From contig JADHMO010000001.1 in the NCBI GenBank assembly GCA_016779995.1, forward strand, positions 1-64,000: a DNA stretch of 64,000 nucleotides. Direction: 5' to 3'. Shown piece by piece: positions 53,160-60,049 of this stretch (within the stretch, counting starts at the first letter, position 1; each line of letters opens with the position of its first letter). The stretch comes from Flavobacteriales bacterium (lineage in GTDB: Bacteria > Bacteroidota > Bacteroidia > Flavobacteriales > UBA7312). The translations under genes were made by a program, and so were the position numbers. The notes beneath the pieces were generated by a model. That model was not told where the DNA came from, ran no database searches, and saw nothing but the letters and a program-made list of their open reading frames with translations.

Positions 53160-53594
53160 TTACTTTCCTATCAGACTAATGTGAATTTCTTGATTTTCAG
53201 ACACAAAAAAATGACAATCTTCAAAGTTAGGTTGTCTAATTAGTGGCTTAAAATTATTAGAAAAGCCATAGGGCTCTTTAGGGATTCCTATTACATTCAG
53301 ATTACATTCTTTATCCCCATTGACATCGTGATACAAGGATACAGCATAATGACCTTCAGGGAGGTCTTCAACCTTAATTATTATGCTATTTCCTATCACA
53401 GGTTTAGAATACTTTCTAATCGATTTATCCTTTTGCAAAAACACTTCAGACTTGTCAAAGACAGCCAATTCAATGTTACCTTGTTGAGTGTTAATATTAC
53501 TCACCACAACTTCAATATCGTATTTTTTAGCCTTGGGGTATAAGATAATTAGTAAGGCAACAGAAACAATAAGTAGGTAGCGTATGATTTGCAT
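53160..53594 (-). CDS. DUF2141 family exported protein
   Basis: A 144-residue protein with an N-terminal membrane helix or uncleaved signal (IIRYLLIVSVALLIILYP) and a beta-rich DUF2141 domain. Its marks are GNIELAVFDKSEVFLQK, GHYAVSLYHDVNGDKECN and GIPKEPYGFSNN. Function unknown; an envelope protein. The ATG at 53594 overlaps the stop codon of the upstream lipoprotein gene by one base (TAATG), so that start is preferred to an ATG at 53621, and coupled translation is likely. Confidence 0.85.
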   Translation of the reverse strand: MQIIRYLLIVSVALLIILYPKAKKYDIEVVVSNINTQQGNIELAVFDKSEVFLQKDKSIRKYSKPVIGNSIIIKVEDLPEGHYAVSLYHDVNGDKECNLNVIGIPKEPYGFSNNFKPLIRQPNFEDCHFFVSENQEIHISLIGK

Positions 53595-54349
53595 TATTCC
53601 TCTTGGTATTCGCCGAGCCAAAAGACACCGACAGGAATCACTTCATAAGACATTAACTCGGCTTGGATAAAGCCCATACTATCACACAAAGCTTTAGCAT
53701 CTTCCTTATTGTTGGTATTAATGAAGAAAACAAAGTCGGTTATGTTATTCGTTCGACGCTTATAAGCATCCTCCTCGCCAGACATTTCCCAATAAACATT
53801 TTCTATATCACCAGATTGGTATAAGTTTTTGATACTACTAGCTTGGGTATTTATTAAATCACCATACTCCTCTACATTGATATCTGTAAGCGTCTTCCAT
53901 ACCGATACGTATGATTTAGTAAGACCTTTATCTTGTATAACATCGGCATTTCTTCCAAACCATTTGCTACCAACGGGGAATACGCTGAAGGTAGCAATAC
54001 CGTTTTTTACAACCGCCAATTCATTAAGTCTTTCTCTAGCTGATTTATAAGATTCAGCTTTTAGGAAGTAACAAATGTTTGGCAAATTTTCTACGCTAGA
54101 AATCTCAGAATTTGCATTATAATAAGCGTTTTCTATTTCGCCATTGCGCCACATTTCTAGCATATCATCATTGATACATTCGAGGTGGGTTCTTATCATA
54201 TCGGCATCAGTAACTGCCCATTGCCATACTACAGCATAATTTTTGAGTTGAGTTGTTGTAATGCTGTTTTCGGAACATTCTTGTTTGCTAGGATTAGCAC
54301 AAGAAAATAACAGCACAAAAGCTGTTAGACTAAAGTAAATGTTTTTCAT
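53594..54349 (-). CDS. Lipoprotein with two tandem muconolactone-isomerase/YCII-like domains
   Basis: A 251-residue lipoprotein (FVLLFSCANP, lipidated Cys17). The mature part holds two homologous domains of about 100 residues: 38-132 and 147-246. Matching landmarks are NGEIENAYYN (69-78) with SGDIENVYWE (179-188), and VFPVGSKWFG (123-132) with VIPVGVFWLG (237-246). The pattern of strand, helix, G.(I/V)..aY and a C-terminal VxPVG...WLG fits the dimeric alpha/beta-barrel superfamily (YCII, muconolactone isomerase, Dabb). No catalytic residue is recognised. It is co-transcribed with DUF2141. Function unknown; fold assignment is inference. Confidence 0.78.
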   Translation of the reverse strand: MKNIYFSLTAFVLLFSCANPSKQECSENSITTTQLKNYAVVWQWAVTDADMIRTHLECINDDMLEMWRNGEIENAYYNANSEISSVENLPNICYFLKAESYKSARERLNELAVVKNGIATFSVFPVGSKWFGRNADVIQDKGLTKSYVSVWKTLTDINVEEYGDLINTQASSIKNLYQSGDIENVYWEMSGEEDAYKRRTNNITDFVFFINTNNKEDAKALCDSMGFIQAELMSYEVIPVGVFWLGEYQEE

Positions 54350-54481: not shown

Positions 54482-55867
54482 CTAATCCAATAAGGCTTGG
54501 TGTACCTTCTTGAGTATTTCGAAGCACTTGTCTTGATTTTTGGCTTCGGCATAAGTACGCAGTACAGGTTCAGTACCAGAGGGTCTTATCATTATCCAGC
54601 TATCTTCATCGAAGTAGAACTTATAGCCATCAATGCTTTCTGTTTTGACAATTGGCATATCGCCAAAGGCGGTATATACTCCATTCTTGCAGTTTTCTAC
54701 TATCTCGACTTTCTTAGCTTCTTCCAAGTGTAAGTCAATACGCTCAAAAGCAAACTCCCCTACTATATCGTACACTTCTTGAATAAGGTCATCTAAACTC
54801 TTTCCTGTTTTTGCCATATATTCCCATATAACTAAGCCCATCCAAATACCGTCTCTTTCTGGAATATGTCCTTTAATAGCCACACCACCAGATTCTTCTC
54901 CTCCTAGTAGAACGTCTTCTTTGAGCATTACGCCTGCTACGTACTTAAAGCCAACTTTTACAGTTTCATGCTCCAATCCGTAGTGAGCACACATCTGAGC
55001 CACTTTTACCGAACACGAAAAGGCAGTAACAACCTTACCACTCATGCCCTTATATTTAACTAAGTAATGTATTAACAACAGGATAATATGGTGAGAGTCT
55101 ATAAATTGACCTTTAGCATTATATAATCCTATCCTATCGGCATCGCCATCGGTAGCTAAACCACAATCTATTTGACCGCTTTCACGGATAAGGTCAGAAA
55201 ATTCAATTAGATTTCTATGAATAGGTTCTGGTGCTGTTCCCATAAAACTAGGGTTTTTTGAACAATGCAATAGCGTAGTTTTTGGCAATAACGCTGGTAC
55301 AGTTTCTCTACCCGCTCCATACATGGCATCATAACCCCAATTGAAATCAGAATTATTTATAGCGTCAATATCAAAACTTGCTCTAGCCTTATCGAGATAC
55401 ATTTTTACTAAATCGGCCGTTTGCACACCTTCCATTGTCAAAGACTGCAAATCTAAACCATGAGCATCAGGAATAATGTCTTCTACATCTTGTATATCAT
55501 CAGGCAATAAAGGTCCTCCAAAGTTTCCTTTTAACTTATAACCGTTGTATTCTGGTGGATTGTGACTAGCAGTAATAACTACACCCAAATCGGCTTTTAA
55601 TTCCAATACACCTAGTGAAAGCATTGGCGTAGTGACAAATCGGTCAGCTAAAGTCACTTTAATACCAAAGTGATTAAAAACCTTAGCGGCTGTTTCAGCA
55701 AATAGCGAACCAGCAAAACGGCAATCGTGACCTATTACTACCGAAGGCTTATCAAAATTATTGTTCAACCATTGGGCAGCTCCTACTGTTACTCGTGCCA
55801 CATTATCTACTGTGTATTCTTCTGCAATAATGGCTCTCCAGCCATCTGTTCCAAATTTAATTTTCAT
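54482..55867 (-). CDS. Phosphoglucomutase/phosphomannomutase family enzyme
   Basis: A 461-residue alpha-D-phosphohexomutase. The four family motifs are present: catalytic phosphoserine Ser101 in TASHNPPEYNGYK, metal-binding DGDADRIGLY near 240, sugar-binding GGEESGGVAIKGH near 320, and phosphate-binding RPSGTEPVLRTYAEA near 430. It interconverts 1- and 6-phosphosugars for envelope polysaccharide or LPS precursors; glucose versus mannose specificity is not decided. It is the last gene of the dapF operon, six bases after mltG, ending at a good terminator. Confidence 0.93.
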   Translation of the reverse strand: MKIKFGTDGWRAIIAEEYTVDNVARVTVGAAQWLNNNFDKPSVVIGHDCRFAGSLFAETAAKVFNHFGIKVTLADRFVTTPMLSLGVLELKADLGVVITASHNPPEYNGYKLKGNFGGPLLPDDIQDVEDIIPDAHGLDLQSLTMEGVQTADLVKMYLDKARASFDIDAINNSDFNWGYDAMYGAGRETVPALLPKTTLLHCSKNPSFMGTAPEPIHRNLIEFSDLIRESGQIDCGLATDGDADRIGLYNAKGQFIDSHHIILLLIHYLVKYKGMSGKVVTAFSCSVKVAQMCAHYGLEHETVKVGFKYVAGVMLKEDVLLGGEESGGVAIKGHIPERDGIWMGLVIWEYMAKTGKSLDDLIQEVYDIVGEFAFERIDLHLEEAKKVEIVENCKNGVYTAFGDMPIVKTESIDGYKFYFDEDSWIMIRPSGTEPVLRTYAEAKNQDKCFEILKKVHQALLD

Positions 55868-55873
55868 AAATAA

Positions 55874-56926
55874 TTATCGTTTAATGTTTCTATCGTTTAG
55901 GGCTTTTCTATACTTAGCAGCATTGATGTTATGTTGAATTGCTGTTTGGGCAAAGTTATGATATCCTGAAAAATCTTCCCTAGCACACATGAATAAATAA
56001 TTGTGCTGTTGATAATTCAAAACGGCATCAATGGCTCGAATTGAAGGGAGAGAAATCGGGCCAATGGGTAGCCCTTTGTATTTGTATGTATTATAGGGTG
56101 AGTCGTATTTTAAGTCTTTCTTTAAAACACGTCTTATGGAGAAGTCGCCAATAGCGAAAATAACCGTTGGATCGGATTGTAACTTCATACCTTTTTTTAA
56201 ACGGTTGAGGTACAAACCTGCAACTACTGGCTGTTCGCTTTTTTGTAAGGTTTCTTTTTCTACTATGGAAGCTAAAGTAACTACTTCTTCTTTAGTCAGA
56301 TTCAAACGTTTGGCCTTTTCTTGTCGGCTTTCGTTCCAAAAATGATGGTGCTCTGCTACCATACGAGATAAAAAACTTGTTACGGTAGTATTCCAATAAA
56401 ATTCGTAGGTGTTAGGAATAAACAAACTACTAACAGTAAAGGCATCAAGACCTAAAGGATTTAAAAAGGCCGTATCTAGCATAGCCTCTAAAATTTGTAC
56501 TGAATCTAATTCTATCTGATGGGCTATTTTACCAGCAAATTCTTCTTTAGTACGAACATTATTAAAAACTACATTGACTGGAGTTTGACGACCAGAACGT
56601 AATAAATTGACCAACTCATTATTATTCATACCATCTTGAAGTAGGTATCGCCCCGATTTGATGTTTTTTGTATAATGCTTTCTTTCTGAAATCCAACGAA
56701 ATGATGATGAACTAATAATAATTCCCTCATCAGTAAGCTGTTGTAGGACATCTTCAAAACTTGCACCAGTAGGTATATAAATAAATACTTCTTTTTGGTA
56801 GTCTAAAGAAACATTGGACTGGTAAATTCTTCCATAAAAGACAGAAGCCGTAATAGCACCACTCAAAAATAGAACTCCTACTAAGCTCCAAATAAATTTC
56901 TTAAAAAAACTTTTCTTTTTTCTCAT
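55874..56926 (-). CDS. mltG: Endolytic transglycosylase MltG
   Basis: A 350-residue protein with a single N-terminal membrane helix (FIWSLVGVLFLSGAITASVF). A LysM-like subdomain (about 45-110: IPTGASFEDVLQQLTDEGII) precedes the YceG catalytic domain: FIPNTYEFYWNTT, LASIVEKETLQKSEQPVVAGLYLNRLKKGMKLQSDPTVIF (split landmark; Glu223 catalytic) and a C-terminal NPY-like SPYNTYKYKGLPIGPISLPS. It cleaves nascent glycan strands to set their length. It overlaps the cytochrome gene by one base, in an operon with other envelope genes. Confidence 0.94.
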   Translation of the reverse strand: MRKKKSFFKKFIWSLVGVLFLSGAITASVFYGRIYQSNVSLDYQKEVFIYIPTGASFEDVLQQLTDEGIIISSSSFRWISERKHYTKNIKSGRYLLQDGMNNNELVNLLRSGRQTPVNVVFNNVRTKEEFAGKIAHQIELDSVQILEAMLDTAFLNPLGLDAFTVSSLFIPNTYEFYWNTTVTSFLSRMVAEHHHFWNESRQEKAKRLNLTKEEVVTLASIVEKETLQKSEQPVVAGLYLNRLKKGMKLQSDPTVIFAIGDFSIRRVLKKDLKYDSPYNTYKYKGLPIGPISLPSIRAIDAVLNYQQHNYLFMCAREDFSGYHNFAQTAIQHNINAAKYRKALNDRNIKR

Positions 56927-58776
56927 TAAAGTGTGCTCAATAAATATAGCGCTTTGCTGTTGTTAGGCTCTATATCTAAAATTCGTTTCAAATATAACTT
57001 TCCTTTGTTAAAATCACCATCTAAAATCAGTAAACTTGCCTTGTTGAGTAAGGATTGTATGTGTGTAGGATTCAACTGTAAGGCTTTATCATAGCATTCC
57101 ATAGCCGATTGGTTTTGACCTTGTTTTAGCAAAACATATCCTAAATTACACCAAGCACTTTCGTGTTTGGAAAACTGAGCTAAAAGTGTCCGGTATTCTT
57201 TTTCGGCTAATGCAAATGAATTGGTGTTAGAATACATATCAGCTAACTTTAAACGAAAATCCAAAACATAAGGTGCTAATTCTACCGCTTTTTTATAGTA
57301 AAAAAGAGTTTGACTAATTCCTAACTCTTGATTTTGATGAGCCTGAGCAATGCGATAGGCAGTCCAAGCGTCGCTATTATCGTAGGACATTTTATCTAGA
57401 CTCAAATCTTCCATAGAATTACAAATGTTCAGGATAGCTATATCGTCTTGCTTCAAGAAATACAGATGTATTCGTTCTTTATAAGATTTTTCTAATGCTA
57501 TACTATTCAAAAGGTTTAAAGCAGAGTCTAATAAATAAGGTTGTGCATCGAATTTTTCATACTGATACAAATAGGCTTTAGCTCGTATTAATTTAGAAGG
57601 GTTGGCGTTATTTATCGCCTCTAAACCGATGAATTTGCCTTTTGTTACTATTGTATCCTCAGTGTTATGAATACCAATTTTATGATCGTGTATGCTAACG
57701 TGAGGGATATCAATTGTACTTGATGACGGCATATGACAAGCTATACAATTATCATTCTCTCTAAATTCGTCTTTGCAATTGTCGTGACAAGACAAACACT
57801 TATCATTAAAAAAGTTAGGACTCTCCTTTTGTACAGAATGATGTGGATTGTGGCAAGTAATGCAATTCATTTCAGAGTTGGTAAAACAAGCACTTTGCTT
57901 GAGTCTATCTACGTGCGATGCCATTATGAAGGTGTTATCGTCTTCATACCTTGGCACAAATACAGTCATTACTTCAGACAAGTCCATACCCGGTTTAAAG
58001 TTTAAAAAGCTTTTGCCTTCTGAAAGTACGGTATTACCCTGTAAATGACAACGCATACAAATTTGAAATTGGGCTTCTAATGACAGTTTTTTAGGATTAA
58101 CAATAGAGTAGTCAATCTGAGTTGAGGTATCTACCAATTCGCCATTTAGCATACGCTGAACATGTAGTTCTCCGGGTCCATGACAACGTTCACAATCTAT
58201 CCCTTGAGCTACGCTATGATACTTATTCTCTGAACCCAAAACAAAATCTGGAGTAGCGTTATGACAACTCATACATTCTAGTCCTATTTTTCTAGAGAAA
58301 CGGCTATTGTAACCGTCTTCAAATCCAGGAGGAAAATCCAAATGACCATCTTGGGTATAATAAGTAAAAGGCATCTGATGAACATAACCCCCTTCTTCCC
58401 ACAAATGTGAATTGGTATGGTGTCCAGAGCCAACAATAAAATCTACATCTTCTATGCGTTCACCATAAGCGTGCAACTCCTTTAATTTCAGCACACTATC
58501 TTTCCAAAACGGATGGTAGCGAAACTGATTAAATGTATCTGTAAGTATGGAATTCTCAGTAAAAATAGCCTCACTGTTTTGTAGCGTAGCTAAGGACATA
58601 GACTGCCCCATTCCTGTTTGTACATACGTTTGATAAATATCGTAATGACAAGCCATACAACTCTCCTTGCCCACATAAGCAACCGTATCGTGGTGATTTA
58701 GATAAGTGGTGTAAGGCTCTATCCTTGAGGTACATCCTACTAAAGTAATAAATATGGAAATGTATATTATTCGCAC
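56926..58776 (-). CDS. Heptahaem c-type cytochrome lipoprotein with C-terminal TPR repeats
   Basis: A 616-residue lipoprotein (LVGC, lipidated Cys15). Seven CXXCH haem-attachment motifs are present: CMACH 40, CMSCH 168, CERCH 195, CMRCH 240, CITCH 305, CLSCH 327 and CIACH 344. The region resembles the cytochrome c554/NrfA-related multihaem fold, with MPFTYYTQDGHLDFPPGF and a long haem-free gap between haems 1 and 2. From about residue 400 the protein is helical with TPR units (AWCNLGYVLLKQGQNQSAMECYDKALQLNP at about 540-570). It should face the periplasm or outer surface. It overlaps the GNAT gene by ten bases and mltG by one. No enzyme activity is assigned. Confidence 0.9.
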   Translation of the reverse strand: MRIIYISIFITLVGCTSRIEPYTTYLNHHDTVAYVGKESCMACHYDIYQTYVQTGMGQSMSLATLQNSEAIFTENSILTDTFNQFRYHPFWKDSVLKLKELHAYGERIEDVDFIVGSGHHTNSHLWEEGGYVHQMPFTYYTQDGHLDFPPGFEDGYNSRFSRKIGLECMSCHNATPDFVLGSENKYHSVAQGIDCERCHGPGELHVQRMLNGELVDTSTQIDYSIVNPKKLSLEAQFQICMRCHLQGNTVLSEGKSFLNFKPGMDLSEVMTVFVPRYEDDNTFIMASHVDRLKQSACFTNSEMNCITCHNPHHSVQKESPNFFNDKCLSCHDNCKDEFRENDNCIACHMPSSSTIDIPHVSIHDHKIGIHNTEDTIVTKGKFIGLEAINNANPSKLIRAKAYLYQYEKFDAQPYLLDSALNLLNSIALEKSYKERIHLYFLKQDDIAILNICNSMEDLSLDKMSYDNSDAWTAYRIAQAHQNQELGISQTLFYYKKAVELAPYVLDFRLKLADMYSNTNSFALAEKEYRTLLAQFSKHESAWCNLGYVLLKQGQNQSAMECYDKALQLNPTHIQSLLNKASLLILDGDFNKGKLYLKRILDIEPNNSKALYLLSTL

Positions 58777-59282
58777 AATAACTGAAACATCAATTCATCT
58801 TCCCAACCGTTTGGCGACTTATTCCATTTTTTCTTAACACCAATAAGCACAAAGTCTAAAGAACTGAATAAATTAATACTGGCTTGATTATTGGCAGAAA
58901 TATTACAATATAATTGATTGAGTTGCAATTTAAAAAAGGCGTATTCTATGATAAGTCTTAAGGCTTCCTTGGCATAACCTTGTCTTCTATTGGACTCTTG
59001 CACTATCCAAATTCCTAAACCTGCTCGGGCATGCATAGGCTCATAATCAAACAAATCAATCGTTCCTATAGCAACTCCCTCCCTTTCAATCATTAAACGC
59101 AACTGCTTAACGGTAAAAATATCTTGGTGAGCATTTTCCAAATATTGTTTTAAAAGATACCTTGAAAAGGGTTTATAAGTTTGGCTTATCTTCCATATAC
59201 TAGAGTCGTTTTCCCATTTGTAAAACAAATCTAAATCCTCTGGCTCTAAAGCCCTTAACCTGATGTTTTCGCCTACTAACAT
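58767..59282 (-). CDS. GNAT-family N-acetyltransferase (RimJ/RimL-like)
   Basis: A 171-residue GNAT protein: start LVGENIRLRALEPEDLDLFYKWEND, then IGTIDLFDYEPMHARAGLGIWI and the acetyl-CoA-binding segment VQESNRRQGYAKEALRLIIEYAF (R/QxxGxG/A form), with NQLYCNISANNQASINLFSSLDF. These are typical of RimJ/RimL/SpeG-like enzymes that acetylate protein N-termini or small amines. Substrate unknown. It overlaps dapF by seven bases and the cytochrome gene by ten. Confidence 0.88.
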   Translation of the reverse strand: MLVGENIRLRALEPEDLDLFYKWENDSSIWKISQTYKPFSRYLLKQYLENAHQDIFTVKQLRLMIEREGVAIGTIDLFDYEPMHARAGLGIWIVQESNRRQGYAKEALRLIIEYAFFKLQLNQLYCNISANNQASINLFSSLDFVLIGVKKKWNKSPNGWEDELMFQLLCE

Positions 59283-60049
59283 TTTATTTCACCTTTGAAT
59301 ACACAATTGTAAGGACCTACTAAATCTATAGTGTGATAATGGTCTTTTTTCTCAAAATTTACTTTTAAATCACCACCCAAAGCTATTACTTCAACAGTAT
59401 TATTAGTAATTAACTTAGCGTCAAATGCCGATAGTACAGAAGCAACAACACCTGTACCACAAGCCAAGGTTTCATCTTCAACTCCTCTTTCATAAGTTCT
59501 AACATAAAGTTTCTTGTCTTTTATCTGAACAAAATTGACATTAGTACCCTCATTTTTAAATCGTTCATTGTAACGTATTTTCTGACCTTCTTCAAACACA
59601 TTAACAGACTCTATGTCTTCAACAAATTTGACATAATGTGGAGAGCCCGTATCTAGAAAAAAATAATCCTCACCACTTTCTATTTCTTCTACATTTTGCA
59701 TTCTTAAAGAAACAAAAGAGCTAGTCCAAGTGGCTAAATGTGGGCCATCGCATGCTAAAAAATGACATTCTTTTTCGAAGATATTCAGTTGTTTAGCAAA
59801 GTCAACGATACATCTACCACCATTACCACACATAGAACCTAAATGACCGTCTGCATTGTAATACACCATCTCAAAGTCATAGTTTGTGGCATTTTGCAAT
59901 AAGATAAGTCCATCAGCACCAATTCCCAACTTTCTATCGCACAAATTTTGAATGAGCTTATGATTAGAATCGTCAAATAACAATCCTCTGTTATCGATAA
60001 TTATAAAATCATTACCCGCACCTTGATATTTTTGAAATTGGATATTCAT
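59276..60049 (-). CDS. dapF: Diaminopimelate epimerase
   Basis: A 257-residue epimerase with a two-fold repeated fold. Both catalytic cysteines are present: Cys74 in GSMCGNGGRC and Cys197 in TLACGTGV, with the start KYQGAGNDFIIIDNR and the RTYERGVEDETLACG block. It converts LL- to meso-diaminopimelate for peptidoglycan and lysine. It is the first gene of a five-gene operon (dapF-GNAT-cytochrome-mltG-phosphohexomutase) and its -7 element is only four bases before the ATG. Confidence 0.96.
   Translation of the reverse strand: MNIQFQKYQGAGNDFIIIDNRGLLFDDSNHKLIQNLCDRKLGIGADGLILLQNATNYDFEMVYYNADGHLGSMCGNGGRCIVDFAKQLNIFEKECHFLACDGPHLATWTSSFVSLRMQNVEEIESGEDYFFLDTGSPHYVKFVEDIESVNVFEEGQKIRYNERFKNEGTNVNFVQIKDKKLYVRTYERGVEDETLACGTGVVASVLSAFDAKLITNNTVEVIALGGDLKVNFEKKDHYHTIDLVGPYNCVFKGEIKC

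Follow-up and report, generated by a model that had tools for sequence, protein, structure and literature searches.

What is known of multihaem cytochromes comes largely from anaerobic respiration and metal reduction. One such cytochrome is OcwA (PDB 6I5B), a terminal reductase with nine haems from Thermincola potens, which reduces nitrite and hydroxylamine (PMC6703420). Its beta-sheet domain is found at residues 75-156, one of its haems has a His-Met pair of ligands, and its haems 2 and 5 each present an open side beneath His-His motifs (PMC6703420). NrfA, the pentahaem nitrite reductase (PF02335), and the decahaem GSU2203 and DmsE families (NF041028 and TIGR03508) are the other described systems that come closest to the protein that we examine here. 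In this protein, a haem domain with seven CXXCH motifs is joined to a TPR domain. No relevant study on multihaem proteins with TPR parts was found in the literature that we searched, so the preliminary description of this DNA was right to propose an unstudied redox protein; the databases may well list its kind under generic TPR or multihaem names.

The window, that is, the whole stretch of 64,000 nucleotides that was analysed, comes from a Flavobacteriales bacterium. The gene order in the region of interest is dapF-GNAT-cytochrome-mltG-phosphohexomutase, and Pfam confirms the identities that had been given to the four genes around the cytochrome:

54482..55867, minus strand: phosphohexomutase (PGM_PMM, domains I-IV)
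55874..56926, minus strand: mltG, endolytic transglycosylase (YceG)
56926..58776, minus strand: heptahaem cytochrome-TPR lipoprotein gene, 616 amino acids, GTG start
58767..59282, minus strand: GNAT acetyltransferase (Acetyltransf_3)
59276..60049, minus strand: dapF, diaminopimelate epimerase (DAP_epimerase)

The cytochrome gene is read from 58776 to 56926, and its GTG start is also present in congeners. As had been noticed, it overlaps both of its neighbours, by 10 bases for the GNAT gene (58767-58776) and by the single base that its stop shares with the mltG start (TTTAATG, 56926). A gap of 6 bp, without overlap, separates mltG from the phosphohexomutase gene. On the same strand, the window also encodes a lipoprotein-like protein of 251 residues (53594-54349) that has no Pfam match, adjoins a DUF2141 protein and has tblastn matches in some relatives only.

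The cytochrome itself is built as follows:

58732..58776, minus strand: signal peptide and lipobox with lipidated Cys15 (LVGC), Cys15 being invariant in 22 orthologues
57637..58689, minus strand: haem domain, residues 30-380, from profiles and models
58645..58659, minus strand: CXXCH 1 (C40-H44)
58609..58611, minus strand: Met56, the probable sixth ligand of a haem, from comparison of this slot across subfamilies
58336..58545, minus strand: beta-domain, residues 78-147, between haems 1 and 2, from AlphaFold models (OcwA counterpart 75-156)
58405..58419, minus strand: HTNSH motif (H120, H124) inside the beta-domain, invariant in subfamily a only
58261..58275, minus strand: CXXCH 2 (C168-H172)
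58180..58194, minus strand: CXXCH 3 (C195-H199), followed by GPG..H205
58045..58059, minus strand: CXXCH 4 (C240-H244)
57850..57864, minus strand: CXXCH 5 (C305-H309), within CHNPH312
57784..57798, minus strand: CXXCH 6 (C327-H331)
57733..57747, minus strand: CXXCH 7 (C344-H348), within CHMPxSxSxDIPHxxIxDH
56929..57594, minus strand: TPR domain, residues 395-616, about six helical pairs and a cap, from Pfam and AlphaFold

This anatomy bears out the lipobox, the seven CXXCH motifs and the C-terminal TPR part of the preliminary description. The lipoprotein call is a judgement made on the sequence, from the short signal peptide that ends in the lipobox and the invariant cysteine. The possibility that the CXXCH motifs arose by chance was ruled out by shuffling the protein 20,000 times, which gave a mean of 0.027 motifs and a maximum of 2 against the 7 real ones. 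All seven are CXXCH, and none is CXXCK. In the first third of the protein, Pfam finds generic multihaem models and nothing more specific, and it matches residues ~510-613 with TPR_1 (1.1e-14) and other TPR models above cut-off. In the AlphaFold model, the TPR part consists of paired helices over residues 395-615, with a pLDDT mostly above 90.

The fold of the haem domain places the protein in a known class. The AlphaFold model of residues 20-395, made with 81 sequences, contains no haem and has a mean pLDDT of 76.5, with parts below 50, and a pTM of 0.75. The fold search was rerun with the haem domain alone because the search with the full-length model had been swamped by TPR proteins. The sole PDB entry matched at E<=0.001 is then OcwA, a partial match (Foldseek E 1.4e-6, probability 1.00, TM 0.47). 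In the profile search, OcwA ranks first (3e-13), followed by MtrA, multihaem cytochrome cf, NrfA (7e-6) and MccA; these labels are those of the depositors, and 6i5b was named OcwA through the fold search. No curated NCBIfam model scores above its cut-off with the window protein. The class, an OcwA/NrfA-type redox protein, is well supported; OcwA belongs to the NrfA/c554/HAO group.

Relatives of this protein are widespread. Scanning a single genome for each species gave at least 576 of them; the best 80 of these are almost all labelled Bacteroidota, one being labelled Chlorobiota, and every one of these 80 has exactly seven CXXCH motifs in the haem domain. Departures from seven were met in a sequence with undetermined residues, which has six, and in two distant relatives, which have eight. 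Several hundred genomes thus carry a relative, yet the Pfam and NCBIfam models that match are all generic. A full-length orthologue was found in 30 of 60 relatives, and when 148 genomes were drawn evenly from the order, 45 of them had the gene, in a single copy each. The carriers include streamlined genomes of 1.0-2 Mb, several of them from ocean samples, where a strictly conserved multihaem protein is unexpected. Such genomes also argue against an extracellular terminal reductase exposed at the cell surface, a reading that OcwA, as the nearest solved structure, would suggest. No recurrent porin-cytochrome partner was seen among the neighbours, and the residues after Cys15 (TSRIEP), which we take to be unlike the acidic surface-export signal of Bacteroidota, count in the same direction, so that we hold this reading to be very improbable.

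Apart from subfamily a, to which the window protein belongs, two groups with seven haem motifs occur elsewhere in the phylum: subfamily b, a sister subfamily that also has TPR, and group c, made of TPR-less proteins of ~405 residues. In one family of the phylum, subfamily a and subfamily b cytochromes are found as adjacent tandem pairs (three loci). One subfamily-b cytochrome adjoins a CCP_MauG di-haem peroxidase (L210:7789-8841). Some group c genes lie near SusD, cellulase or FG-GAP/UnbV_ASPIC genes (four loci, among them L211:5562-12690), which hints at polysaccharide-use loci.

For the seven motifs to carry haem, the cell needs a maturation system, and the search for one that had been advised gave a positive answer. 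The source genome encodes a ResB-CcsA fusion of 1034 residues (System II maturation), and a PF01578 protein is present in 16 of the 17 carriers checked, which rules out missing haem maturation as an objection. Within the order, maturation splits between System II (the ResB-CcsA fusion, ~1030 aa) and an apparent System I (a CcmF-like protein of ~820 aa and a second PF01578 gene). Against three congeneric orthologues, dN/dS is ~0.09, a sign of strong purifying selection, with the lowest value in the haem part; the median pairwise identity is 56% for the haem part versus 31% for the TPR part. From the maturation genes and the purifying selection, we conclude that the cytochrome is in use and that covalent attachment of haem to it is plausible.

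The haem ligands were assigned from the alignment because the AlphaFold models are haem-free and moderately confident in the haem region. Met56 stands 12 residues past His44, in what is probably the sixth-ligand slot of haem 1. This position is Met in all members of subfamily a, His in all of group c and Met or sometimes Lys in most of subfamily b; the four subfamily-b members with Lys may possess a Lys-ligated haem. Replacing His by Met as the sixth ligand raises the potential of a haem. The distal candidates common to subfamilies a and b are 56, 205, 288, 312, 359 and 365, which makes six slots for seven haems. The conserved distal ligands would thus number only five or six, suggesting that at least one haem lacks a sixth ligand of its own. 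H120 and H124 are invariant in subfamily a; in subfamily b, the corresponding positions are mostly Ala and always Tyr, respectively. Together they are plausible active-site residues over an open haem, by analogy with the His pair of OcwA.

The same two histidines can be read otherwise. If H120 or H124 were an axial ligand, they could, with the five or six conserved distal ligands, fill every haem; with seven six-coordinate haems and no catalysis, the protein would be a pure periplasmic electron carrier, or a branch between a quinol oxidoreductase and another acceptor, a task for which His/Met ligation is well suited. However, subfamily b also has seven haems and does without these histidines, which makes an essential ligand role unlikely for them, and the invariant residues that crowd around HTNSH without being ligands point to a substrate site. 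We therefore regard the pure carrier as rather unlikely, and we give catalysis by the heptahaem cytochrome about an even chance.

The place of the gene has a history of its own. For the 148 genomes, the tables of cytochrome and MltG positions were set side by side, an adjacent pair being on the same contig and strand with MltG ~700-850 bases past the haem domain. In 42 of the 45 carriers of the even sample, MltG is the next gene downstream, and in the other three it lies on a different contig. This rules out scattered homologues without a link to mltG. In a tree of 115 haem domains, the mltG/dapF context is seen in 75 of the 94 rows of one large clade, within which the aroB/typA-context genes nest among the mltG-context ones, while the relatives outside it have neither context. 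Where the mltG-context loci could be tested, the gene immediately before the cytochrome encodes GNAT in 62 of 73, the one immediately after it encodes MltG in 57 of 67, and the cytochrome and its cluster neighbours are on the same strand, usually less than 300 bp apart. Since the link is conserved and the maturation genes are present, neither of the two situations that the preliminary description saw as fatal to it, scattered homologues and absent maturation genes, is what we find.

The cluster does not depend on the cytochrome. Of the relatives that lack a close orthologue, 20 were checked: all of them keep mltG, and dapF, GNAT or both adjoin it in nearly all. Conversely, the cytochrome has been relocated several times and then neighbours aroB, typA, smpB, carB or the gene for phosphatidylserine decarboxylase; the alternative contexts (these, a radical SAM and a sortilin/BNR protein) show no consistent partner. 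At the loci examined, neither the sister subfamilies nor the relatives outside the clade were found beside mltG. The most fitting reading of the place in the cluster is a single old arrangement passed on vertically. The simplest history is a single early entry into a conserved dapF-GNAT-mltG cluster in this Bacteroidota lineage, which explains why the cytochrome sits between GNAT and mltG, followed by inheritance with occasional loss or relocation; the cytochrome may also have been in the cluster from the start and then been lost in the relatives that are free of it.

These observations bear directly on a redox protein coupled to envelope growth, in which the TPR part would bind MltG or another wall enzyme, the haems would sense or tune the periplasmic redox state, and operon co-expression would be selected. 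GNAT-cytochrome-mltG persists in nearly all carriers within the order and through most of the wider clade, and this persistence, like the overlapping reading frames in the window, speaks for such a coupling. Nevertheless, the dapF-(GNAT)-mltG cluster is maintained where the cytochrome is missing, in some carriers the gene lies elsewhere, the sister subfamilies were not found near mltG, and the TPR part, the supposed partner binder, evolves faster than the haem part, so that we judge this coupling unlikely. A more elaborate version is more doubtful still: a heptahaem enzyme common among Bacteroidota, possessing a His/Met haem and an HxxxH site peculiar to its subfamily, would act on the inner side of the envelope and, via its TPR part, couple the periplasmic redox state to the glycan-strand length controlled by MltG, hence the lasting adjacency of the genes. 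The place in the cluster implies co-transcription but no role in wall synthesis: with cytochrome-free clusters, relocated carriers and outside relatives away from mltG, the place is inherited and does not establish such a role. The adjacency makes a wall role possible, and the cytochrome looks like a passenger in a cell-wall cluster, probably a small-molecule reductase. What stands of the preliminary description is an unstudied multihaem TPR lipoprotein with a conserved mltG/dapF link; its tie to envelope growth is unsupported.

We thus favor a lipid-anchored, periplasm-facing heptahaem reductase with one open haem and an inherited place in the cluster, a model that, taken as a whole, we consider as probable as not. 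Electrons from a periplasmic c-type chain would enter via the haems. An alternative-complex-III-like cluster with a multihaem protein and an NrfD-like subunit is present in the source genome; its multihaem subunit (C3:6364-7629) reaches six CXXCH motifs through the fusion of a mono-haem cytochrome c domain to its N-terminus. One haem would have a raised potential owing to its His/Met pair (Met56). The electrons would then reach one haem, probably haem 2, that would lack a sixth protein ligand of its own and face His120 and His124 of the beta-domain, and a small molecule such as an N-oxide or a peroxide would be reduced there. The TPR domain takes the position of the usual C-terminal three-helix bundle and might dock the cytochrome to a partner. 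The partial nature of the match to OcwA (TM 0.47) and the moderate confidence of the haem region (mean pLDDT 76) weigh against this model.

As for the substrate, the source genome contains a narGHJI-like cluster (C4:119828-127468; L060:7828-15468) with a two-haem cytochrome c, an MFS transporter and a moaA-like gene nearby, which prompted us to consider a partner in nitrate or nitrite respiration. NarG occurs in 2 of the 21 carriers tested, the source genome and a single other one, so the cluster looks sporadic; a full NrfA was found in none of the carriers tested, and the source genome has no PF02335 match. This partner was therefore rejected, and no nitrogen-oxide pathway points to the substrate.

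Many Bacteroidota thus carry, wedged in a cell-wall cluster, the gene of a membrane-anchored redox protein with seven putative haems. It offers a test case for multihaem roles outside anaerobic respiration, as well as a test of whether a conserved operon place reflects function or inheritance.

Compared with the described systems, the GSU2203 and DmsE decahaem families are the best NCBIfam matches, and all 81 members match them via the haem motifs, but they score 49 and 44 bits where the cut-offs are 325 and 192, and the haem number differs. NrfA shares a CHMP motif and, in the profile search, bears a weak resemblance along the C-terminal haems (7e-6 for Shewanella NrfA); however, the window protein has no CXXCK catalytic haem and has extra haems, a beta-domain and TPR, and Pfam Cytochrom_C552 (PF02335) matches only 1 of the 81 members at E<=0.001. 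Group c has its seven CXXCH motifs in the same order as the window protein and shares the distal His 205, 312 and 365, but it is shorter, has neither TPR nor HTNSH, and has His at position 56. OcwA has in common with the window protein the haem-domain fold, the N-terminal haem 1 motif, the beta-sheet domain after haem 1, the CxxCHGPGxxH motif and a His-rich motif proposed to lie above an open haem. Unlike the window protein, it has nine haems instead of seven, His instead of Met in the slot 12 residues past haem 1 (profile alignment) and a C-terminal three-helix bundle where the window protein has TPR pairs; the latter is, moreover, a lipoprotein of Gram-negative bacteria, which OcwA is not.
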